Below are positions 11,662 through 32,943 of a stretch of DNA of 64,000 nucleotides, one piece after another. How positions within the stretch are numbered: the stretch's first letter is position 1; each line of letters begins with the position of its first letter. The position numbers and the translations under genes were made by a program. The notes beneath the pieces are model-generated. The model was not told the origin of the DNA, searched no databases, and saw nothing but the letters and a program-made list of their open reading frames with translations. The stretch is from a virus, in IMG/VR virus record IMGVR_UViG_3300032799_000664, positions 62,001 to 126,000 of that record, one strand, 5' to 3'.

Positions 11662-12435
11662 GTGGCACTGAGCCTCGCGCAGGTTGAAGCTCAACTGCTG
11701 GCGGTGGCCCAGACGCCGCGCCGCGCCGCGAAAACTGCGGCAGCGAAACCCACCGCGGCCGCCGCCAGCGTACAACGCCGTGATGCCGCTCAGCTACTGA
11801 CCGATGCCGGCGCATCAGCCAGCGGTTGTCTCCAAGCATTCGAGCTACTCTGTGGTGAAGGCTTCCGCGTCTGGGAACCCGAGACGCTCTGGTTGACGTT
11901 GGACCGTCTCGGCGTCGATCTCCCGGTGGTCAACCGGGACAAGATCCTGGCGGGGATCACCCTCGGAATCGTGCCGGCCTTCTGGTGGGAAGTCCACGCC
12001 TTCGAGAACACCGTCCTAGCTTTCAACGGACTCGTCAGTCTGCCCGAAGCACTGCAAGAAGCTACGCCGGCGCAGATGGCTTGGGGCGTCTTCGAAGCCG
12101 AGATGATCTACCGCGACCTCGGCGACGAAGAACCCGAGTTCGATCGCGAGCCAGTCATCTACGCGGCCACGGTGCTGCACCGCGCCGGCTACGTGCGGGC
12201 GCCGGACCTGCTCCACTTCGCCCAGCGTGAGCTCGACCGGTTCAACAAGAATGGCAGTGGGCTCACGGTCACCGAAGTGGACACTGCCTGGAAAGCGCTG
12301 AAGAAGCACCCCCTCGAAGAATGCAGCTTAGGTGAGACGGCCCTCGACGTGCAGCTCGGCCGTTTGGCCAGCGTCGAGCTGCACGTCGAGGAGATGTTGA
12401 AGCGCTACCGCGACGACCTGGCGAAGCTCCGCTAG
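11662..12435 (+). CDS. Unknown protein (257 aa)
   Basis: Begins at GTG one base after the previous stop; RBS weak. Residues 15-40 are Ala/Lys-rich (AAKTAAAKPTAAA), then a mostly helical domain rich in Leu, Trp and Glu (FRVWEPETLWLTLDRLG). Probably co-transcribed with the preceding gene. The stop shares CTAG (12432-12435) with the convergent AAA+ gene. The motif KTAA places it with the virion-type proteins; function unknown. Confidence 0.72.
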   Translation: MALSLAQVEAQLLAVAQTPRRAAKTAAAKPTAAAASVQRRDAAQLLTDAGASASGCLQAFELLCGEGFRVWEPETLWLTLDRLGVDLPVVNRDKILAGITLGIVPAFWWEVHAFENTVLAFNGLVSLPEALQEATPAQMAWGVFEAEMIYRDLGDEEPEFDREPVIYAATVLHRAGYVRAPDLLHFAQRELDRFNKNGSGLTVTEVDTAWKALKKHPLEECSLGETALDVQLGRLASVELHVEEMLKRYRDDLAKLR

Positions 12436-13883
12436 GCCAACGGGTCCGGCCCGCCGCCTTCCTTCTGGGCCTGCTGGAGCGCGTCAGTGATACCGCGGAT
12501 GTGGCGCTGGTAGCTCTGCTGCTTCGCCAGCTCCTTGCTGAGTTCCGACAGGTAGGACGAGACGTCGCTGATGCCCTCCTGCGCCGCACGCAGCTTGCTG
12601 GCGATGAACGAGACCGCGAGGTCCGACGGCAGGTCACCGAGGAACAGCGCCAGCTTCGGGGCCACGTCCTTCGGCCCAGGCTTGGTGCCGAGCAGCATCG
12701 TGGCCACGTTGGAGCACAGCTCGCCGAGAACGTCGTGCCGCGCGTCCTCGACCAGCTTCAGCACCTTCTTGCGCACGGTGCTCTTCTCGCTGTACTTGCC
12801 GAGCACGTCGGCAGTGGCGATGACCACAGCGCGGTTCTTCATGTACTCGCAGAACTGCGAACCCGTGACCTCGCCGACGTGCCCGCAGATGCAGGCTTGC
12901 AGCGCGTCGCTGATGCCACTGCCACTGCCACTGCTACCACTGCCGCTGTTTTCGAGGATGCCGGACTCCTCCGCAGCGCTCAGCAGCTTGCTGACCTTCT
13001 CCCAGGTGGCGGGCGACGGGTAGACCTTCCCCGCCAGGCGCAGCTTCGGATCGTAGAGCGCGACGTTGTTGTCCTGGATGTAGTCGACAACGTGCGAGTG
13101 GAACTTGCCCCGGGCGTAGGACAGCCACCCCGCGACGTTGCAGGTGACCGCGACGAAGCACAGCCGGCGCTTGATGGCGGGGTCCTTCTCGGCCTCGTTG
13201 ACCGAGTAGGCGCCGTCGGAGGGGTTCATCGCCGCGATGATCTGCGTACCCGCCTTGATGACCTCCACACCGTGAACCTGCCCGTCCTCCATCAGCGTGA
13301 AGAACGTCTTCACCGTGCCCTTCTCGCCGCGGTTGTACTCGTCGAAGAAGAGTCCGCACTCCGGCGGCAGGTCGAACAACTCGCGGTTGATGAGGAACTC
13401 CATGGTGCCGTTGCGCCGCGTACGCTCGTCGAGGTGTGCGATCGTCCGCGCCGTCTCGAGCACCTGTGACTCGAGACTCCGAGCGATTTCCTTGAACTCG
13501 TCATGATCGCCCTGCGTACGCACGAACAACGCGAGCTGCTGCATCTGGGTCGCGCGCTGCAGCAGGTCGCTCTGCTTGGCTTGCGACGGATACGGCACGG
13601 CGATGTCCTCCGGCTGGAGATGCTGGAGGTAGAACGCCAGCAACGGCACCGAAGTCGTCCACTCCTTGTTCTTCCAGGTGAACGGCTTGCGCGGCCGGCG
13701 CCGTGCGAACACCTGCCGGACGATGTGGCTCTTGCCGATGCCACTCTCGCCCACCAGGCAGATGACGTTGCCAGTGTCGCGGTTGGCGTCGATGGCGGCC
13801 ATGGCCGCCTGCAGACCAAAGAGAGGGATGCCGAGCTTGCGGTAGAACGTCTCCTCGGCGTTTTCGTCGGACTTCTTGGCCAT
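12432..13883 (-). CDS. MoxR-type AAA+ ATPase (483 aa)
   Basis: Walker A GESGIGKS is at about 45-52 and Walker B LFFDEYNRG about 130 residues later, with the MoxR-like Asp-Glu-x-Asn-Arg pattern. IIAAMNPSDG then matches sensor 1. The family uses ATP to remodel complexes, usually with a vWA protein. ATG 13883 is preceded by GAGGAGAAG; a GTG six bases upstream is less likely. A low-complexity Ser/Gly linker (GSGSSGSGSG) near residue 320 separates the AAA+ core from a helical C-terminal domain. The likely partner is the vWA-metallopeptidase at 9250-10578. Confidence 0.85.
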   Translation of the reverse strand: MAKKSDENAEETFYRKLGIPLFGLQAAMAAIDANRDTGNVICLVGESGIGKSHIVRQVFARRRPRKPFTWKNKEWTTSVPLLAFYLQHLQPEDIAVPYPSQAKQSDLLQRATQMQQLALFVRTQGDHDEFKEIARSLESQVLETARTIAHLDERTRRNGTMEFLINRELFDLPPECGLFFDEYNRGEKGTVKTFFTLMEDGQVHGVEVIKAGTQIIAAMNPSDGAYSVNEAEKDPAIKRRLCFVAVTCNVAGWLSYARGKFHSHVVDYIQDNNVALYDPKLRLAGKVYPSPATWEKVSKLLSAAEESGILENSGSGSSGSGSGISDALQACICGHVGEVTGSQFCEYMKNRAVVIATADVLGKYSEKSTVRKKVLKLVEDARHDVLGELCSNVATMLLGTKPGPKDVAPKLALFLGDLPSDLAVSFIASKLRAAQEGISDVSSYLSELSKELAKQQSYQRHIRGITDALQQAQKEGGGPDPLA

Positions 13884-13885
13884 CG

Positions 13886-14359
13886 TCACTTCTCCTCGGG
13901 GGTGCGATCATCGAGGTAATCGCGCCCTGGGTAAAGCTTCACGTGGTCGGTGAGGTAGGCCACGGCGCCATCACCGTGTCCGAGAGCCATGAGGAACGCG
14001 GCCAGGTTAGCCGCGTCCGTGGGGTTGTGCATGTGCAGCTTCTCCATGAGGTAGCTTGGCGTGATGTAGCCGCTGAGATCGAACGCATAGAAGCCGCCCC
14101 AGCTGGTGCCTATCGTCCACAGCCCGACGAACGTGTAACCATCTGGACAGTCGGGGTGTCCGACCTCACAGGCCAGCGTCTCGTCGAAGAGGCACACCGT
14201 AAAGCGCGTACCGCGAGCACAGAATTCGACCAACACCGGATACGTACGCGCTTCGAGGAGCCGTGCAACTTCGGCAACGCCGGCGGGCTTGTCGAGATGA
14301 ACTTCGCCTGCCCATTGCGGCTTCTTTACGGAGTTGGTATCGTGGGTCTTGGAACCCAT
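13886..14359 (-). CDS. Unknown protein (157 aa)
   Basis: ATG 14359 has GGAGGAATATCC before it, and the stop lies two bases before the MoxR start, so the two form an operon. The sequence is alpha/beta (VLVEFCARGTRFTVCLFDE, FVGLWTIGTSWGGFYAFDLSG) with a helical C-terminus. No family is recognised. Its 5' end overlaps that of the terminase gene on the other strand. Confidence 0.72.
   Translation of the reverse strand: MGSKTHDTNSVKKPQWAGEVHLDKPAGVAEVARLLEARTYPVLVEFCARGTRFTVCLFDETLACEVGHPDCPDGYTFVGLWTIGTSWGGFYAFDLSGYITPSYLMEKLHMHNPTDAANLAAFLMALGHGDGAVAYLTDHVKLYPGRDYLDDRTPEEK
14315..14343 (+). promoter_or_regulatory. Possible promoter of terminase gene
   Basis: TTGCGG (14315-14320), 17-bp spacer, TATCGT (14338-14343), 14 bp before ATG 14358. 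It lies inside the divergent gene, so support is from the boxes only. Confidence 0.4.
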
Positions 14360-16994
14360 GGATATTCCTCCACAACTGCGCTCGGACTTGGCGCAGCACC
14401 TGCTGTACCTGGATGGACAACCGTTCTCGCTCGGGGACTACCCCTTCTACCACGCCATCTACGACGGTAACTACCAAGGCATGCTGCTGAAGTCGGGCCG
14501 GCAAGTCGCGAAGTCGACGACGCTGTGCAACTTCCTTATCAGCGAAGGCATCGGGACCAGCCACTTTCGCAGCTTGTACGTATCACCGTCGCAAGAGCAA
14601 ACCCGCAAGTTCTCCAACACCCGCGTCGGCAAGGTGTGTCTCTACTCTCCGCTGATCAAGCAGTACTGGGTCGACGCCTCCGAGCTGAGTCAGCGGACCA
14701 TGCTGCGCATGTTCCGCAACGGCTCCGAGATTTCGTTCACTTACGCACTCGATGATCCTGACCGCGCCCGTGGCAACACCGCAGACCGCTGTTGCTACGA
14801 CGGCGAAGCACAAGTGCTGACTAAGCGCGGCTGGGTGTCGGTGTGTGCTCTGGCGTCGGATGACCTGGTAGCAGATGTCACGGATGCTGGGCGCGTTGAT
14901 TGGAGCGCCCCCATGGACATCTTTACCAAGAAGTTCACGGGTCGCATGATCACCTTCCGCCATCGCGGATTCCAGTTGCGGGTGACCGATGACCACAAGA
15001 TGTGGGTCAATTTCCACGTGAAAGCGGACGCGGCGTATAAGCAGTCTGACGACTATGTGTTTGTGCCAGCGGGCACGCTTGCCACAACTGAGCGCATGGG
15101 CTTCAAGATGACCTGCGTCGCGGAGTGGTCGGCGTCGACGCCAGCATGGCGTCACTTTAATGGTACACCTACGCGGATGCGTGGGCAGCAGGAAGCGCTG
15201 CAATTGCCGTACACCGCATTTGCGCGGCTGGTTGGCTGGTATATCGCGGAGGGCCACATCTCGTGGCGGCGGTACCGTGCCAACGGGGCGCGCAAGTGTC
15301 CACGACCGGTCCTCACGCAAAACGTCAGCCGTGGTCTACAAGACATTACTGATACCATCGACGCCTGCGGGCTACAGTACAACGTCGGACGCGGACGCAA
15401 GGGAGCGGCGGAGGCACGCCGCGTCATCGTAGGCTCGGAGACTTTGGGGTGGTACTTCGCCGACCTGGGTAAGTCGTACGACAAGTACATCCCTCGAGAG
15501 TTCTTTGAGAGTCCTGCCCTGCTGGAGCAAATCCTGCAGGGCATCTATCTCGGCGACGCCAGTTATCACCGAGGCGAGGCGTGGCAGAACGGTACACTGC
15601 GAACGCGGTCGCGGCGCTTGGCGGAAGACGTACAGGAAGCATGGCTGCGTCTGGGCCGCCCAGCGGTGATTCACACGCGTCAAATGACCGGCGCACCGCT
15701 GTACGAGGTTCTCTCGTACAACCGGGACTACCTTATTTTCTGGCGTGCGGAGTTCAACACGAAACGGCGTGTCATCGTCGAGCAGGTCACCGACGAAGAT
15801 GTCTACTGTTTCACCGTTAAGCATCACCGCCCTATCGTAAAGGGCACCTTCCGTTCGTTGCCGGTGGTCTGTTCCAACTGCTACGACGAGGTGCAAGACA
15901 TCCTCTACGAACCGGTTATCCCGGTCATAAACGAATGTATGGGCAACTCGGAGTACGGCTACGAGACGTACGCCGGCACGCCCAAGACCATGGAGAACAC
16001 CATCGAGTACCTCTGGTCCATCTCGACTCAGAACGAGTGGATCATGAAGTGCGATGGGTGTGGTCGTTACAGCTTCATCGATAACGCGAAAGCGGTGGGC
16101 AAGGTTGGTCCCGTGTGCGTGAAGTGCGACCACGCCCTGAACCCGCGTAACGGACAGTGGTACTCCTTCAAGCCGGAAGCAACCCTGACCGGTTTCCACA
16201 TCCCCCAGCTCATCCTGCCGCGCAACGCTGAGCAGCCCAACCGCTGGCAGCGCATCCTGACCAAGCTCGCGCGCTACAGCGACACCAAGTTCAAGAACGA
16301 GGTCCTGGGCATCAGCGATGCTCTCGGCGCGCGCATCATCTCGAAGCAGGAGCTCGAGGCGCTGTGCGAGGACTACGACATTTACCGGCAACCCTCGCCG
16401 GGCATCAACATGGAGTACCGCCATGTCGTCGGCGGCGTGGACTGGTCGGGCGGTGGTACAGAAGGCGTGTCGCGTACCGTCGTCTGGATCTGGGCGGTCA
16501 CCAAGAACCACCAGTTGCGCACGCTCTACTACCGCGTCTATCCCATCACCAGTCCGGTGAGCATCGTCGACGACGTGGCGGAAGCTTTGCAAGCTCACCA
16601 CGTCGAGCTGGTGATCGGTGATCGTGGTGAAGGCCACCTGGCGAACGATCTCTTGGCGCAGCGTCTGGGGTCGAACCGCGTCTCTCAGGTGATGTACGGC
16701 GCCCAGGCCCGGACGATTTCCTGGAACGAGAAGGGGTTGTTCTACACCGCAGACCGCACCACGTTGATGGACAACTACTTCATGGTGCTGAAGCGCCAGG
16801 GCGTCATCTTTCCCCGGCTCAGCTGCATGCTTGAACCGATCACCGACATCCTCAACATCTACGAGGAGGTCACGGTCAACGGCAAGAAGGTCTGGCGGCA
16901 TGCGCCGACCCAGCCGGATGACTGCTTCCACGCACAGCTCTTCGGCTGGCTCGCCGCCAAGGTGCTGCTGATGGACCTGACCTTCACTGGTTGA
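14358..16994 (+). CDS. terL: Terminase large subunit containing an intein
   Basis: The packaging motor ATPase-nuclease. Walker A SGRQVAKSTT is near residue 41-50. The Walker B segment (CCYDEVQDI in the spliced product) is split by an intein. A zinc site follows (CDGCG ... CVKC). The C-terminal RNase H-type nuclease has GGVDWSGGG, VIGDRGEG and PDDCFHAQ with the expected Asp residues. The spliced product would be about 516 aa, normal for TerL. ATG 14358 is chosen; a TTG upstream (14334) is the only alternative. There is no strong RBS, and a nearby promoter suggests a short or absent leader. Confidence 0.9.
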   Translation: MDIPPQLRSDLAQHLLYLDGQPFSLGDYPFYHAIYDGNYQGMLLKSGRQVAKSTTLCNFLISEGIGTSHFRSLYVSPSQEQTRKFSNTRVGKVCLYSPLIKQYWVDASELSQRTMLRMFRNGSEISFTYALDDPDRARGNTADRCCYDGEAQVLTKRGWVSVCALASDDLVADVTDAGRVDWSAPMDIFTKKFTGRMITFRHRGFQLRVTDDHKMWVNFHVKADAAYKQSDDYVFVPAGTLATTERMGFKMTCVAEWSASTPAWRHFNGTPTRMRGQQEALQLPYTAFARLVGWYIAEGHISWRRYRANGARKCPRPVLTQNVSRGLQDITDTIDACGLQYNVGRGRKGAAEARRVIVGSETLGWYFADLGKSYDKYIPREFFESPALLEQILQGIYLGDASYHRGEAWQNGTLRTRSRRLAEDVQEAWLRLGRPAVIHTRQMTGAPLYEVLSYNRDYLIFWRAEFNTKRRVIVEQVTDEDVYCFTVKHHRPIVKGTFRSLPVVCSNCYDEVQDILYEPVIPVINECMGNSEYGYETYAGTPKTMENTIEYLWSISTQNEWIMKCDGCGRYSFIDNAKAVGKVGPVCVKCDHALNPRNGQWYSFKPEATLTGFHIPQLILPRNAEQPNRWQRILTKLARYSDTKFKNEVLGISDALGARIISKQELEALCEDYDIYRQPSPGINMEYRHVVGGVDWSGGGTEGVSRTVVWIWAVTKNHQLRTLYYRVYPITSPVSIVDDVAEALQAHHVELVIGDRGEGHLANDLLAQRLGSNRVSQVMYGAQARTISWNEKGLFYTADRTTLMDNYFMVLKRQGVIFPRLSCMLEPITDILNIYEEVTVNGKKVWRHAPTQPDDCFHAQLFGWLAAKVLLMDLTFTG
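14793..15878 (+). other. Intein with LAGLIDADG endonuclease in terL
   Basis: In-frame insertion of 362 codons. It begins with CYDGEAQVLTKRGWV (splicing block A, Cys1), has VTDDHKMWV (block B-like), and ends DVYCFTVKHHRPIVKG ... VVCSN followed by Cys of the C-extein. The last residue Asn is right; the residue before it is Ser rather than the usual His. Two LAGLIDADG-like helices are present (LVGWYIAEG and LQGIYLGDA). The site lies in the ATPase Walker B, a typical intein target. The region has more A/T-ending codons than its host gene, in keeping with later arrival. Confidence 0.9.
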
Positions 16995-16999
16995 GTCCC

Positions 17000-17008
17000 T
17001 GCTACGAT
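17000..17008 (+). promoter_or_regulatory. Extended -10 promoter at the head of the hairpin region
   Basis: TGCTACGAT fits the extended -10 pattern TGnTAnnnT. It lies just after the terL stop and before the first hairpin of the gene-free region. Confidence 0.45.
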
Positions 17009-17542
17009 AGTGCGCGCCTTCGAGAGCTTGCAAGAAGGCGAGGTTTGCTTTCCGGGGCTTCGCGCCACGGAAAGGAAACCGAAGCCGCCGCAGCGAGTTC
17101 TCGAAGGGAAGTGCTTCCGGTACTCGCGCTGCAACTCTTGGCTGCACAGATGACGACGTAGCGTCGTCGGGCCACTGGTGGGTCACACCCTCTCCCAACA
17201 GCAGTTCTTTACCAGGGACTGAGAAACCGGTCTACTTCGTTGGAAGCGACGCGGCAGGTCCTCGAGGTCGGCAGGTGGTTCGGCGTCTCGATAACCGCGG
17301 GAACTGCACGAGGAGTGGAGTAGCTCGTCGCGGCGGATCCGATCAGATCAGGGTTCTCGCAGAGAACCAGACCTGAATGCCGGCGTGGCACCGGCGGCCT
17401 TTGCAGGACTAACTAGACCGGTACGTAGCGTCACAACTTCCGTGCACTGCCCACTTCGTTTGCGCTTAGCGCCGGCGGAGGAGTTCCGTTGGCGACCTGC
17501 ACCCACTTCGTTTCCCGGATGTGCTCGAGCAGGGTCCATCCA

Positions 17543-17557
17543 GTTTACGCAGTAAAG
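17543..17557. repeat. Palindrome family copy 3 (GTTTACGCAGTAAAG)
   Basis: TTTAC-GCA-GTAAA palindrome inside the candidate structured RNA. Confidence 0.65.
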
Positions 17558-17751
17558 CACACTAATGGCGGCGTGACGCCGCCAGCACTTTCAAGTGCTC
17601 TGGGTGAAAACGATCCACTTCGTTGCGGCGGGCCGCGGCGGCCGCCTCGAGATGACGTCGAGGAGCTCGCCGGCGGTGAAGAAGGCCTATTTCGCGCGGA
17701 ATTCGCGATAGCGGTTCGATCGGATCCGATCCGGTCGAAGACCGCAGGCCA

Positions 17752-17780
17752 AAAAGCCGGCGTGGCGCCGGCAGCCTTTT
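17752..17780. terminator. Bidirectional terminator
   Basis: Stem GCCGGCG-TGG-CGCCGGC (17756-17772). On the minus strand it is followed by five T, ending the replication operon about 50 bp after its last gene. On the plus strand it is followed by AGCCTTTTC. A near copy of the stem and its 3' flank occurs at 17379-17408. Confidence 0.6.
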
Positions 17781-17828
17781 CAGGACGGTACTGGATCGCA
17801 TGCCGTGCACGGTGGCTACGACACTACA

Positions 17829-18719
17829 CTACGACTGAGGGGTGGCACGCGCGGCATTGATGGCGCGTGTCTTGTCGATGACCTGCTCTTCGCGGGAATC
17901 CGACGTAGGCACAAGTCCTTCTTGATGTGCGCGCACGTCGGTAGAGACGGACATCACCGGCGCGTCGTCGGGTAGATCCGCTTCGATGTGGTGGTAGGCG
18001 GCGCGCATCCGGAACTGGTAGAACCCACGGCGGTTGGCGTCGATGAACGCCGGGTAACCCATGAGCTCGGACAGCTGCGGCACCGACTCGCCGATGCAGT
18101 TCATCTTGTAGAGGATGAACTCGAAGCCCGCGAAAGCGATCGGGAGGTAGTGAACCCGACCGCGTTCGATGTTCGGATCGATGAAGCAGGGGCTGTGCAG
18201 GTAGGCCCGGTGGAGGTCTTCGCTCGTGACCAGTCCGAGGATCGGACCTCGTACGGTATGGAAGACCTTCATCTCCTGGCCGTCCAGCATCGCCTTGGCG
18301 ATCTGATAGACGCCCATCCACACCGACACCTGCTTGAAGTTGTCATCGACTGGGTGGAGCGTCTCCCACTCCGCCTTGTCAGCTTCCCACTGCGCCCGCG
18401 CATCCTTGGTCGCCTGCCAAGCTACACGCGCTTCTTCCGTGGCATCGGGCACCAGTTCGCCCAGCTGCGATACTTCCGGCTTCGGGAACGGCGGTGGCGT
18501 CACCGCCTCCACCTTGATGATGGCCTCCGCTGGCACCTTGACCAGGTCGTCGTTCGACATGATACGCGTCTCGCCACGCTTACCGATCACGAAGCGTATC
18601 AACTCCAGCTTGTGGCCGCCGACCTCCGCTTCGACGGTCTCAGCTTCATTCAGTGGCGACTTCTTGGATTTCGGATCGGAACTCGTCGTCCGTGACGACT
18701 TCGTCTTCCCCTTGCTCAT
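17829..18719 (-). CDS. Unknown protein at end of replication operon (296 aa)
   Basis: ATG 18719 has AGGAGACCTCG before it; the longer upstream frame overlaps the polymerase gene and is rejected. The first 74 bases overlap the end of the polymerase gene. The N-terminus is Lys/Ser-rich ([15 protein letters not shown]). Residues about 60-230 form a mixed domain with FPKPEVSQLGELV, an acidic Trp-rich helix (QWEADKAEWETLH) and YLPIAFAGFEFILYKMN. No family is recognised. The position suggests a replication or recombination accessory. Confidence 0.7.
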   Translation of the reverse strand: MSKGKTKSSRTTSSDPKSKKSPLNEAETVEAEVGGHKLELIRFVIGKRGETRIMSNDDLVKVPAEAIIKVEAVTPPPFPKPEVSQLGELVPDATEEARVAWQATKDARAQWEADKAEWETLHPVDDNFKQVSVWMGVYQIAKAMLDGQEMKVFHTVRGPILGLVTSEDLHRAYLHSPCFIDPNIERGRVHYLPIAFAGFEFILYKMNCIGESVPQLSELMGYPAFIDANRRGFYQFRMRAAYHHIEADLPDDAPVMSVSTDVRAHQEGLVPTSDSREEQVIDKTRAINAARATPQS

Positions 18720-21700
18720 CGAGGTCTCCTGTGGTGGTAGTGGGTGCCGGCAGTGGATGTTTCTCGAGGTACTTCTTGATGTCAACCGTTTCGCCGTAGC
18801 TCGGTCCAACTTCCACGTCCCACAGGAAAGGCACCGGGAGCCAAGGACAAGCTTCGGCAACACGGCGCGTCCCGTACTCACGCATCACCTCGGGCACCTG
18901 AGAGACGTACTGTGGCGGCACGCTGAAGACGAGACTGTCGTGTACCGTCGCATGGAAGAAGCCCCGCAGATCACGAGAGATGACCGGAAAGACTTGGTTG
19001 AGGACCCACAGCACGATGTCACTGCTGGTCGACTGGATCTTGAAGTTGACGGCTTGACGAAAGCAGCGTGAAGCGAAGGATTGGCGATCCGCCAACGGGA
19101 ACCGGCGCTTCCGCCCCGTGTAGGTGTAGATGTTGTGGAACGCCTTGACCTCAATCTCAGTCGCCTGGATGTAGGCGGGGATCGAAGGATACCGCCGGAA
19201 GAGGCCGTCGATGACCTTCTGGGCTTCGTCCTTGCTGATACCAGCAGTCTCAGCAATCTTCGCAGCCTGCGCCCCGTAGAGCGTACCGAACACGACACGC
19301 TTGGTGTTGGTGCGCTGCTTGACCACGGCTTCAGCCACGGCCAGCGCGGCGACGTCCTCCGCAGACAGCTTCAACCCAGTCTTGGCGAGCTCGATCTTGC
19401 GGTCGACGATGTCATCGAGCGTCTGTCGCTGCTGCTCGATGTAGGCATACGTGAAGCGATCGGGGTAGACCTCCGCAGTGAAGTAGGAGTGAGTATCGAG
19501 ACCGTCGTTGATGGACTTGATGAGCTCGGCGTCGTTCGAATAGGCGGCGAAGAGCCGTACCTCGGCGCCCTTCGCATCGACGTTGCAGAGCACGTGGCCT
19601 TCGAGCGGGATGAAGATCTTCTTGATGTTGACGTCGGCCAGCTTCTTCGGGATGTTCTGCATGTTCTCACCTGAAGAGCTGGTCCGTCCTGTACACGTCC
19701 CGACGAGATGGAAACTCGGGTGCATACGGCCATCGATGACTGCGTGCTCACGCACATTCGTGAGGAACGGTGACCGCGCCTTGCACGCTTTACGATGCCG
19801 TACCAGGAGGCGAGGGAAGTCGTACTTGTACGTGTTGGCCACGTACAGCAGAGCCTTCTCGTCAGCTTTGATCTGTCCCTTCGGAGTACGGGCAATCTTC
19901 GCACTGCCCGCATCAACACGAACCTTGGCGCCTTCCTCGTAGAACCCGTCGTTGAAGATGATCCGGATGACCTCCTGGGGGTTTCCCAGAACGAAGCGCT
20001 GTCCCGCGAGCTGGTAGATCTTCTCTTCGGTTTCCCGGGCGACGATCTCCAGCTTCTTGTCGAGTTCCTCCAGGTAGCCCAAGTCCACCGGGAAACCGGT
20101 GTACTCCATCGCCGCCAGTGTCTGGCTCGTGGGGAGTACGTGCTCCCGCATGAGTCGGCGTACTGGTGCCGGCGGCGGCGCAGCTTGTAGCGATGCGCGC
20201 AGCGTCACGTCGTTGGCGTACTCCGTGTCCAGGCGCTTGTGCTGATGAAGGACGTGTTGGCGAGTCACATCGGCGTCAACGGCCGCGTACAACTCCAACT
20301 GCGGCAGTGGGATCATGGTGTAGTCGAAAGGCAACTGATGCACAGGTTCTTCCGGCGGATGTGGCCGCAGTGGCGCCTTCGGCTTCTTGTCCAACACCGA
20401 TTGCCGGATGCGGCGCAGTTCTCGGTTGGTCTCGCCGGTCTTGCGCGCTGCCGCGGCCCGAGCTTTCTCGGCCGTGAACTTCTCGCGCCACTTCGACAAC
20501 GTAGCGTCATAGCTGGCGCGTTCCTGCTCGTAGGCGGTCTGCTGCGTCGTGTACTCCACCAGCGCATGCTGGTACTGATCGACGGCACGGCGGAACGCTT
20601 TGTTGGCCTGTGCGCGGGTCATGCTGCCGTGCGTCTCGCGCAGCTCCGCCACCTTGTCCTCGTAGCCTGCGTAGGCAGGTAGGCGAACCCGGGTGAGCAT
20701 CTTGAGGCCATACGCACCTTGCTTGTCCTCTTCGAGCAAGTGCTCAGCGCCCATCGTGTCCCACACGAAGTTCTCGAGGGGCCAACCGTAGTGGTGACAG
20801 ATCCCTTGAACGTCGAACTGGCCGTTGTGCAACACCTTCGGCTTCGGACAGGCCAGCACACGTTGCACATGTTGTTTCACCTGCGCCAGTTCTTCCGGCG
20901 ACCACCACGCCTGTGGATGATCGAGGACGATCGAAGTCGCCTTCAGTTCTGCCCAGGCGAACGAGATACAGATGATGCGGAAGTCCGGAGCGTAAGGCTC
21001 CAACGAAGTCGTCTCGGTGTCGACCGAGATCATGTGCTTACCCGGCGGATCACCTTCGTTGGCGTAGTTGATGATCTCGTCGCAGAGGTCCTGCACTTCA
21101 GCCACCGTGTGGGGGAACTGGTAGTGCTGCCGGAGGAACTCTTCGGAATGCCGGTGTTGGTCCAACCGGCCTTCGGCGAGGAGGAACGCATTCTGCAAGT
21201 CGCGCTCCAGCTCACGGAAGAGACCCTGCGTGGCCAGAACTGCTTTGGGCGAGTAGGTGACGTAGACGTTGAAGGGTTTCTCGTGTCGCGGCAATGTAAG
21301 CAGTGATGCCGTGCCGCGCAGGTCATCGAAGCGCATCTTGCTGCGCCCCAAGACACTGCGAGCAGCATCAGCGCCGAAGGCTACGATGATGTCAGGCTGG
21401 ATGCGGATGATGGTTTCTTCGAGACGATGGCGGCAGTGCGCCGTCACTTCCTTCGGTACGCGGTCATCCGTCATGCACTGGACCGCGTAGGTGTAGTAGA
21501 CGCGCAACTTGTCGAGTCGATCCGGCCCGTCGGGTAGCCGCGAATACCGCGCGCGAATTCGGCCGAGTGCCATCCGTACCACGATGCCCGCCCGGTCCTG
21601 AAACGCGTTGCCACCGTGCGGTGACGCGATGGCTGGATGATCACCAACGAACAGGACGCGCGCTTCGTGTTCGCCCGCGTCGGGAACGTAGGCGTAGGCG

Positions 21701-21786
21701 TAGAAAGGACAACTGCTGCAGTGCGCCGGCTTGCCCGCAGCTCGGGCCGGATCGTTGACTTCGGGCCTAGTAGTTGAAGTCGTCAT
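18646..21786 (-). CDS. polA: Family A DNA polymerase with N-terminal uracil-DNA-glycosylase-like domain
   Basis: 1046 aa. Residues about 20-190 resemble a family 4 uracil-DNA glycosylase: [16 protein letters not shown]...FQDRAG, VQC...HC, and [14 protein letters not shown], so all four Fe-S cysteines are present. A 3'-5' exonuclease follows, with [22 protein letters not shown] and [11 protein letters not shown], interrupted by a roughly 90-residue Lys/Glu-rich helical insertion. The polymerase domain has motif A ([15 protein letters not shown]), motif B ([14 protein letters not shown]) and motif [10 protein letters not shown], where Ser replaces the usual Glu after the catalytic Asp. ATG 21786 is preferred over GTG 21795. 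It overlaps the genes on both sides. Replicative polymerase of the phage. Confidence 0.92.
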
Positions 21787-24700
21787 CCTTGACACCCTTC
21801 TTCGGCGGTGGCGTCGAGGTGTCAGACGCGCCGTCGCCTGTGCTTGTACCAGTCCCCGCGGCCTCCTTCTTGCCCAGCACGTCTTCGGGTTTCGAGAACA
21901 CGGCCGTCTTCAGCTGTTCGGCGTACTCCTGTGACATGTCGATGTCCTCCATACCTTTCAACTTGCCCGGAGTACGGGACTGTGCGGCATCGTCGAGGTA
22001 CTCGGTCACCTTGAACGCGGCGACGTTCTCCATGCGACTGCCCCGCGTCATGTAGGGCAAGAGACGATCCAGAGCCCCGCTCTGGCGCAGCGTCTCGTCG
22101 CTGATGTAGTAGTGGTTGCGCACCGAGTGGGCCTTCAACCAGTCTGCTGGCCGGTGGCTGTACTCCTGAACGCTGCTCAGGATCGTGAAGCGCGCCAGGG
22201 CGAAGTCGATGACTATCGCTTCCAGTTCCTTGTCGTAGTAGCAGCCAGAAGCGGTACGGTTGAGGTTCTCCGGGGTGGGACTATTGAGGATCGATCCCAC
22301 CGTTCGCTGCACCGTGTCGCCCATGTCGGGCATACGCACCGCGGGGACTGATAGCACGGTGGTGAGGATGTCCCCGCTCAGCGAGCTACGGGCAATGCGC
22401 GACAAGTAGGTCCGGTTGAGACGGAAGTGGTCACGGAAGAGCACGTCGTACTCGACGCCGGCGTGCTTCATGATCGCCAACGCGCCGTAGTAGTGCTCAC
22501 GACTACGAGAGATGTCGCTGAACTCGACGCCGGCGCCGTACTTGTACTGTTCAGCGACATCGTTGTAGATGCGCCGCAGCGCCCGGAGTTCGCGCCACAT
22601 GATCAATGGCGCATCTTCACGAAGCTTGCGAATGGTGAGCGCACCGAAGGCCTCTAGGAGGAGCACCTCCGGAGTGGGCCGATTCTCCTGCCGATCCATC
22701 TCGATCATGATGGTGCGGGAGAGGTCCTCCGGCAGCTGCGTCTGGCGAATGCCGGCCAACCAGACGGGGTGATGCACGCTGTATTCGACCGGCTGTCCGT
22801 TTACGCTACCTTGGATGGTCCGGCCCGCTTCATTAGCCAATCCCCGGAAGTGCTGTGACAAGCGCTGCACCGTCTGGCTTTTCGGGTCGTGCGCCAAGCC
22901 CTTGTCCTCGAACTCGTCGAGGCACAGCGTGATCGTCGAGTTGTTCATCGCCTGGCGCACACCCGCGACGGTGTAGTTGTCCATCCACAGCGCCGGCTGA
23001 ACGATGTTGATGGCGGGTTTGGAGGTACGTCCGATCAGACCGCCGACGAGGAACGTCTTACCGCTGCTGTGCTCAGCTGTGATCATGAGCAGAGGTTGGC
23101 GGGCGAAGGCGTCGGCAATGAAGCCTTGTAGGATGAACGCGGCCATGAAGTGCGCCGTGTTCTCGTGATGCTTGAAACGCCAACCCGTACTGAGAATCCG
23201 GTAGACCAGATCGTAGAGCTCCCGGAAGGACAATCTCGGCACCCGATTGAAGTCGTCCTCATCCTTGTACAGCGGATAGGCGTCGAGTGGTCGTCGTCCG
23301 TGCTCGGCGTAGATGACGACGTTACCATCGGCCGGGCCGTTGCACTTCCGCCACAACGGGATGTCGCAGTCGCCTTCGTAGGTTCCCTTGAAGAGACTCA
23401 TTCCCTTTACCGCGTAAAGGGTCGTGGTCGTCTTGTCGTCTTCGTCAGTCGTGTCAATGACGTGCGTGCCTGCGCTGATGGTCTTCACCTGCGACGTACC
23501 CGGCAGTGCATTGGCGAGGCGTTGAACCGCCCACTGCACGTAGGGCTCGAGTATGCGGACGCGGTCCGCATAGAAGACCTCGCCTTTGGCCACGCTCTCG
23601 GCGTACGACATGATGAAGGCAGGTTCGCCGACTTCGTTGCGGATGAAGAGATAGATGTCCTTGCCGCGAGACAGCGCCGCGACCTGTGCTGCCAGCCGCT
23701 TCGGTTCGTTGAGGGGCAGGTCGTAGAGGGTGTCGGTGATGCGGTCGTAGACCCGCAGCATCGAATTGTTGCCTTCACGTAGCCAGTCGAGGACCGATAG
23801 TCGCGCTGCCAGCACACCGCGGATGCGCTCGATGAACGCCTCCTCGTGCTCGTCGGTCGAGGCCATCTTGCTGAGGATCATGCCGACGTTGACGGTGTGG
23901 TGGACGCGCTGGATGTCCTCGACGTAGGCCTGCTGCTCCGCGGTGTCGCGGACGTAGATACCCCACTTGGAGGCGCGGTTGGTCAGCTGGCTGACGTCGA
24001 GGGGATCGATCCCGACCATCTCCGACAAGGCGCGTTCGGCCGCCCACTTGTAGGGGAGCTGGTAGTTCGACGGGTCGCGCAGCGCCGTCTGCACGGTGTT
24101 GAGGCCGAACGCTTTCATCGCGTCGTCCGGGTCGATCTTGTCCTGGCCCGGGATGGTGAACGCCGCCGGCCAGGTGAAGATGCGCAGCCCCAGGTGGAAG
24201 GTCTTCTCCAGCACGCTCTTCACGAACTCGTTGCCGCCGGGATCGTTGTCGCCGACGATGTAGGCGATCTCGAAGCCGAACTCCTTGAGGTAGTCGAGCC
24301 CATCGATGGCACCGCCGCCGCCGCTGAAGCAGACGAAGCCGATATTGGGCGGTACCGTGTCGAATTGCCGGGTGGCGATGCTGAGCATGTCGAACTCGCC
24401 TTCGACGACGACGCAGCTCTTCTGCGTCTGGGCATCGATCATGCGGCCGTAGGGCGGGCAGCCGTAGAGGCCGAACATGCCGCGGCGGTCCTCGGTCTCG
24501 TCCTTGACCCATTGCACCAGCTTGGCGTCCTCAGTGCTGAAGATGCCGTTCGGGAGCAGCGTCGGCACCGCCCGGATCTTGACGTGGCTCGGGAGGTCGG
24601 GCGTGTCGCCGGTGAAGTACAGCACCGCGCCCTGCCACAGACTCGGATTGGTGAAGAAAGACTCGAGGTAGTCCTTGGCCAGCTCCCACATCTGGTCCTT

Positions 24701-32922: not shown

Positions 32923-32943
32923 GGTACTCCTCTTGTACCAGCA

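Follow-up and report, generated by a model that had tools for sequence, protein, structure and literature searches.

Large structured RNAs of phages

Few large ornate RNAs have, to our knowledge, been described from phages, and those whose structures have been solved are RNA-only cages. GOLLD and ROOL, both large RNAs of phages and prophages, form such cages and have no known function; GOLLD exceeds 800 nt in many members and often lies near tRNA islands, and the solved ROOL example measures 659 nt and assembles into an octameric nanocage (PMC12286853). The locus described here resembles GOLLD in specifying a large, highly structured phage RNA of similar size with a variable part. It differs in giving no match to the GOLLD covariance model, in carrying tandem domains of variable number between terL and polA, and in the lack of any detected tRNA gene in the window, that is, the whole 64 kb stretch of viral DNA that was analysed (bases 62001-126000 of a 130,445-base virus record; all positions below are those of the window). 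With ROOL it shares the size range, the complex folding and a phage-borne gene, but again there is no covariance-model match, and the repeated domains carry phage-specific words.

Smaller or better understood RNAs offer partial parallels. The phi29 pRNA is a packaging RNA of under 200 nt with one fold, and the packaging ATPase of that phage is gp16; the present element is likewise encoded near a packaging gene, but the terminase is of the GpA type (PF05876) rather than gp16. The CsrB/RsmZ sponge RNAs, whose words are GGA in hairpin loops, share with it the many hairpins, the word repeated many times and the variable length, whereas here the word is found at the junctions of domains or in linkers and varies from phage to phage. 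The STAXI motif consists of tandem pseudoknots that occur close to DNA-handling genes (PMC2864571); the present element, which has a different fold, likewise repeats structured units in tandem beside genes of that kind. For none of these three does Rfam give a match, and no description of an element of such a type beside terL was found in the limited set of open papers searched.

At the gathering score, no Rfam family was detected in the window or in 13 relatives, and nothing relevant emerged at E<=10 in the region or at E<=1 in five relatives. PtaRNA1 gave one chance match at a lax threshold (17.8 bits against a cut-off of 47) and was discarded. Of the two options raised in an earlier note made from the sequence, a divergent GOLLD or ROOL is contradicted by the missing match to either model in window and relatives, even at permissive thresholds, and a class outside the known families is upheld. 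A large folded phage RNA of this kind is well supported by strong covariation, the lack of an Rfam match and the lack of a conserved frame. The best reading is a new class within a known kind, the large structured phage RNAs, which would add a further, unrelated class to them. On balance, the stretch probably encodes a minus-strand structured noncoding RNA of about 0.8 kb, built from a variable number of related domains and with a modular scaffold or assembly role.

Genomic context and distribution

The element fills the 834 bases that follow terL (16995-17828), in which no gene is supported, as had been claimed earlier for a gene-free stretch straight after terL. Its conserved left neighbour, terL (14334-16994, plus strand; GpA_ATPase PF05876), ends with its stop at 16994, and on the right lies a minus-strand operon made up of the hypothetical gene p2 (17829-18716, start approximate), whose product has no Pfam match, and the conserved UDG-exonuclease-polymerase A gene, polA (18646-21795). 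The two sides are therefore convergent across a noncoding gap, and the predicted RNA gene would span this gap (16995-17828) on the minus strand, with its 5' end on the p2/polA side and its 3' end at terL. The window terL carries a LAGLIDADG domain within an intein-like insert (14334-16994); a long terL frame is also present in L003/L138 (943 codons), compared with 510-550 codons in most other relatives. The polymerase A at 18646-21795 is fused with an N-terminal uracil-DNA-glycosylase-superfamily domain and an exonuclease domain.

Relatives were collected by TerL searches, which gave 15 and then 80 loci, and 67 phages were compared for gap content. They form a deep clade with contigs of up to almost 200 kb, and the gap between their convergent terL and polA genes ranges from zero to 2.7 kb. 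Hairpin-dense noncoding DNA of 0.2-2.7 kb occupies it in 37 of the 67 phages by a simple cut-off. Phages that bear the element fall on both sides of the midpoint root of the TerL tree, and the phages that lack it fall mostly into two clades, one of them with an exonuclease-like gene at that place; the simplest reading is that the element is old and has been lost at least twice. This exonuclease-like gene fills the gap downstream of terL in L008, L185, L210 and L212, whose clade has no RNA there, and it occurs together with the RNA in L145, L155 and L174. In two isolated phages with a related TerL, Vibrio phage D181 and Salmonella phage Arash, the next gene begins 20-30 nt past terL, so there is no RNA at that place.

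At the nucleotide level the element diverges quickly. L137 and L138 are 93-97% identical to the window copy; the other relatives have no clear blastn similarity to it, and blastn of the region against isolated phages returned nothing. No further phages were recovered by searching with p2, and a short-pattern hairpin scan of viral contigs gave 120 unspecific matches. A contig filed under an Archaeoglobales MAG (L216) encodes this TerL; it is probably a co-binned phage, and the host is thus uncertain.

Folding and noncoding character

The window gap is rich in short perfect hairpins and also contains long-range complementary arms. It holds 4 perfect triloop stems of at least 7 bp (7-8 bp) against 0.06 expected from dinucleotide shuffles, which agrees with the stems with 3-nt loops reported in the earlier note; the count of at least ten perfect stems of 7 bp or more given there was too high, since the stems exist but number 7 when taken as non-overlapping with loops of up to 60 nt (shuffles: mean 2.7, maximum 8). 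Across the whole set of loci, perfect triloop stems of at least 6 bp number 132 against 8.8 in shuffles, a 15-fold enrichment. Fold z-scores of the window stretch are -4.4 on the minus and -4.9 on the plus strand.

A protein gene was considered and rejected, as no frame survives the indels: in three clades of close relatives, 5 of 5, 12 of 14 and 11 of 13 indels are not multiples of three. The search for a conserved protein frame in homologues thus came out in favour of a noncoding element. A dispersed repeat of the REP or MITE kind was likewise set aside, the region matching its own record once and other large gaps being mostly hairpin-poor. The gap at 12435-12843 of the record has 3 hairpins in 409 nt.

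Modules, domains and words

The most recognizable unit of the element is a tandem-hairpin module, in which a short hairpin, whose loop is often of the GNRA type, is followed at once by a 7-bp hairpin with a GNNAC triloop. Three copies are present in the window, all on the minus strand like the other features of this section, and at least five in one relative (L170). Reading from the predicted 5' end, they lie at 17736-17801, 17518-17612 and 17321-17423, and a weak match at 17117-17200 (E=0.45 with model R2, below) may be a degenerate fourth copy. Their triloop hairpins are at 17756-17772, which is followed by a minus-strand T-run, at 17566-17584, where L138 has a compensatory change and L137 a minus-strand G.U pair, and at 17379-17395, where a minus-strand U.G pair lies beside the closing pair. 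Two further triloop hairpins, GGTTCTC GCA GAGAACC (17352-17368) and GACGACG TAG CGTCGTC (17152-17168), are also present.

Longer-range helices, given here in plus-strand letters, close four domains. Domain d1 (17611-17798) is closed by CGATCCA (17611-17617) with TGGATCG (17792-17798), a helix that reads CGATTCA/TGAATCG in L139, L142 and L140. It is enclosed by d2 (17440-17812), closed by CCGTGCAC (17440-17447) with GTGCACGG (17805-17812). Domain d3 (17226-17422) is closed by ACCGGTCTA (17226-17234) with TAGACCGGT (17414-17422), and the 3' domain (16995-17219) by GTCCCTG (16995-17001) with CAGGGAC (17213-17219).

A short word recurs among these domains. The repeated sequence element noticed earlier was found again as three plus-strand copies of CCACTTCGTT (starting at 17451, 17503 and 17615) and a variant, CTACTTCGTT, at 17232; on the minus strand these read AACGAAGTGG (17615-17624, followed by the copies at 17503-17512 and 17451-17460) and AACGAAGTAG (17232-17241). 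No match to CCACTTCGTTT was found elsewhere in the 130 kb record, nor another copy in the window even at one mismatch. The word AACGAAGU is located at, or immediately ahead of, the 3' strand of the closing helices of d1, d2 and d3, an arrangement also seen in several domains of L139 and L142; it is clear for d1, d3 and those L139 and L142 domains and does not hold for every copy. The words are phage-specific, with AACGAAGU in the window, five copies of CAAGUGAAC in L140, eight of CAGCAGUGC in L148 and four of AGCAGUACC in L162.

Covariation and covariance models

Consensus helices in pairwise and three-way alignments carry 18, 63 and 110 changes on both sides, against at most 2, 14 and 26 when the partners are slid. 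Among L145, L155 and L174, a both-side change that keeps the pair is found at 39 of 228 pairs. A covariance model (R1) was built from the 5' domain of L139, L142 and L140 only, with the window left out, and run over both strands of 605 kb. Its top 14 matches (E up to 0.08) all lie on the minus, or polA, strand and all inside the terL-polA gap. They include L205, from the far side of the TerL tree. In the window R1 gave significant matches on the minus strand only, at 17518-17612 (E=6e-4) and 17321-17423 (E=0.01). Aligning 16 matches to R1, including one plus-strand self-hairpin of L142, gave alignment A9, in which 27 of 30 pairs show both-side changes with a covariation score of 0.402, against 0.132 when shuffled and at most 0.067 when slid; this score is inflated, because the alignment is fitted to its model. 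The covariation that the earlier note had proposed looking for in homologous regions is thus present, well beyond shuffled and slid controls.

A refined model (R2), with the window copy at 17321-17423 in its training set, was searched over 996 kb. It recovered all three window copies, at 17321-17423 (E=5.7e-17), 17518-17612 (E=6.3e-10) and 17736-17801 (E=1.7e-7), the last of them outside training. It also detected a module in L187 and a tandem series of at least five in L170, two loci outside training. Over the 996 kb every match at E<2 lay in the stretch downstream of terL, and R2 searches of whole records added just two weaker matches elsewhere. One second, weaker module match, GCCGCCGGCGTCACGCCGGCATTC, lies in the L137 phage genome (L249 1484-1562; G023 101283-101361), about 93 kb from the element; it is nearly identical to a window module hairpin and overlaps open frames. 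Synteny combined with covariance models can find fast-evolving phage RNAs that are invisible to sequence search and to Rfam.

Strand and transcription signals

The earlier note had placed the RNA on the plus strand, and the evidence points instead to the minus strand. Besides the strand of the model matches, unique triloop stems with one mismatch show 46 plus-strand A.C against 16 G.T mismatches (p=2e-4), compared with 17:17 in a polA coding control. A plus-strand A.C corresponds to a minus-strand G.U. This wobble excess is carried largely by two clades (the W clade and the L145 clade). When structures predicted from one sequence are laid onto relatives, minus-strand structures show 170 changes to G.U against 128 to A.C, with 192 double changes kept and 90 broken, and plus-strand structures 157 against 176, with 170 kept and 113 broken. 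GNRA loops number 10 on the minus and 2 on the plus strand, and stems with T-tails in relatives 21 of 256 and 7 of 256, respectively. The folding-energy excess is equal on both strands and does not discriminate between them, and wobbles are balanced (7:7) in a small, strand-neutral set of covarying helices, so that the case for the strand rests on the models, the triloop stems, the projected structures and the signals.

These signals are placed as a minus-strand transcript would need them: relatives have their promoters next to polA and their intrinsic terminators next to terL. In many of them, TGGTATAAG or a close variant lies on the minus strand directly past the polA stop; it is rare, with 0-5 copies per record tested, mostly on one strand, and is also found upstream of a ribosome-binding site and ATG in L221 and L222 and upstream of the exonuclease-like gene in L008 and L185. 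Textbook minus-strand terminators stand at the terL end of L166 and L168, and L155 and L174 have a minus-strand frame that separates the RNA from terL. In several relatives, the RNA would be transcribed from its own extended -10 promoter just past polA.

The ends of the window copy carry no promoter or terminator of the relatives' type. An extended -10 promoter had been proposed at its terL-side end, but the plus-strand TGCTACGAT there is a poor match and a scan found no promoter. The terminator-like stem proposed at the other end does exist (17756-17772); its T-run is on the minus strand, which puts it near the start of the RNA and not at its end. The window RNA shows no promoter of the relatives' kind at its 5' end and is therefore probably transcribed as the tail of the polA-p2 operon. 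Elsewhere on the minus strand of the window, TGGTACAAG precedes AGGAG and an ATG at 32940, and CGGTATAAG lies at about 39250; both belong to the rare promoter class of the relatives (TGGTAYAAG), which occurs mostly on one strand. Overall, the element is very probably a minus-strand structured RNA.

Leader, words and a possible scaffold

Among the relatives, each RNA carries one to nine words. In ten phages a single 5' leader just past the promoter is complementary to the phage's own words, and both change together: the leader/word pairs are GGUACUG/CAGUACC, UGUACUG/CAGUACA, UGUACUG/CAGUACG (with a U.G wobble) and UACACUG/CAGUGUA. Leader and word have only the complementary 7 nt in common, and their flanks differ. 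At 178 nt and with one word, L159 looks, from its sequence, like a minimal form of the RNA. A role of the words as antisense to leaders elsewhere, on further transcripts with this class of promoter, was rejected, as no record has more than one match to the promoter-plus-leader pattern. The window plus strand at 17787-17798 reads GGTACTGGATC, a sequence also found in the 5' leader of L146, though there on the minus strand; the two are oppositely oriented, and the likeness may be chance.

Tandem domains with common words suggest that the RNA works as a multivalent modular scaffold, a tentative reading to which we give somewhat less than an even chance. All domains would offer one shared partner an identical junction or word, so that the number of domains would set the valency; this partner could be a second molecule of the RNA, the RNA's own 5' leader or a protein. 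A more specific and unlikely version is a self-assembling RNA, in which one 5' leader (e.g. GGUACUG) would pair with any of the 1-9 near-identical words (CAGUACC/CAGUGCC) and so link molecules into branched or closed assemblies of tunable size. If that version were true, valency encoded by domain copy number would be a new architectural principle for natural RNA rather than another cage of fixed stoichiometry. The modular design, which comes in a natural copy-number series (1-9 words, 0.2-1.5 kb), lends itself well to experiments.

The main non-RNA rival is an origin of replication or a pac site acting at the DNA level, in which the hairpins would be those of single-stranded DNA or of cruciforms, and the words would serve as phage-specific iterons bound by a protein. 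The iteron-like repetition of words that differ between phages, the location between polA and terL, the equally good folding of both strands and the fact that leader and word, taken as DNA, are a single 7-mer in inverted orientation would all suit such an element. It is nevertheless improbable: the minus-strand wobble excess, the GNRA loops and the promoters and terminators of relatives point to a transcript, the likeness of leader and word stops at the complementary 7 nt without common flanks, and the element is missing at this place in two clades. The record also has no GC-skew turning point at the element, which is a weak test.

A sponge RNA, like CsrB in role, would use the repeated word to titrate a protein of the host or the phage. 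That an RNA has one to nine identical words, and that these differ from phage to phage, would fit a fast-evolving or host-specific target, but the words sit at helix junctions and covary with the leader in ten phages, which RNA-RNA pairing suits better; we regard a sponge as rather unlikely.

Readings tied to the flanking genes

Three further explanations take their appeal from the position of the element. The element begins at the terL stop codon and folds well on the plus strand (the z-score of -4.9 given above), as would befit a plus-strand RNA or a 3' untranslated region of the terL messenger. Such a transcript is very improbable given that the significant R1 and R2 matches are on the minus strand, that plus-strand G.T stays at the background mismatch level, that no plus-strand promoter was found and that the frame in L155 and L174 separates the RNA from terL.

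The earlier note also mentioned packaging, and a minus-strand RNA that joins the TerL motor, in a role like that of the phi29 pRNA, could be imagined from the conserved location beside terL and from the capacity that a modular RNA might have to oligomerise. Adjacency to terL is the whole basis of this role. The location may be kept by convergent gene order alone, the promoter in relatives belongs to the class of the polA-side genes and two clades whose TerL is of the same family lack the element here, which leaves a packaging RNA with very little likelihood.

Last, a bidirectional terminator or transcript insulator between the convergent operons, lacking any RNA function of its own, would fit the gene order and the minus-strand T-tailed stem at 17756-17772, but it is highly unlikely, because T-tails are few in relatives (the 21 and 7 of 256 stems given above), several relatives have no gap at all, and hundreds of nucleotides of long-range covarying domains and repeated modules would be superfluous for termination.
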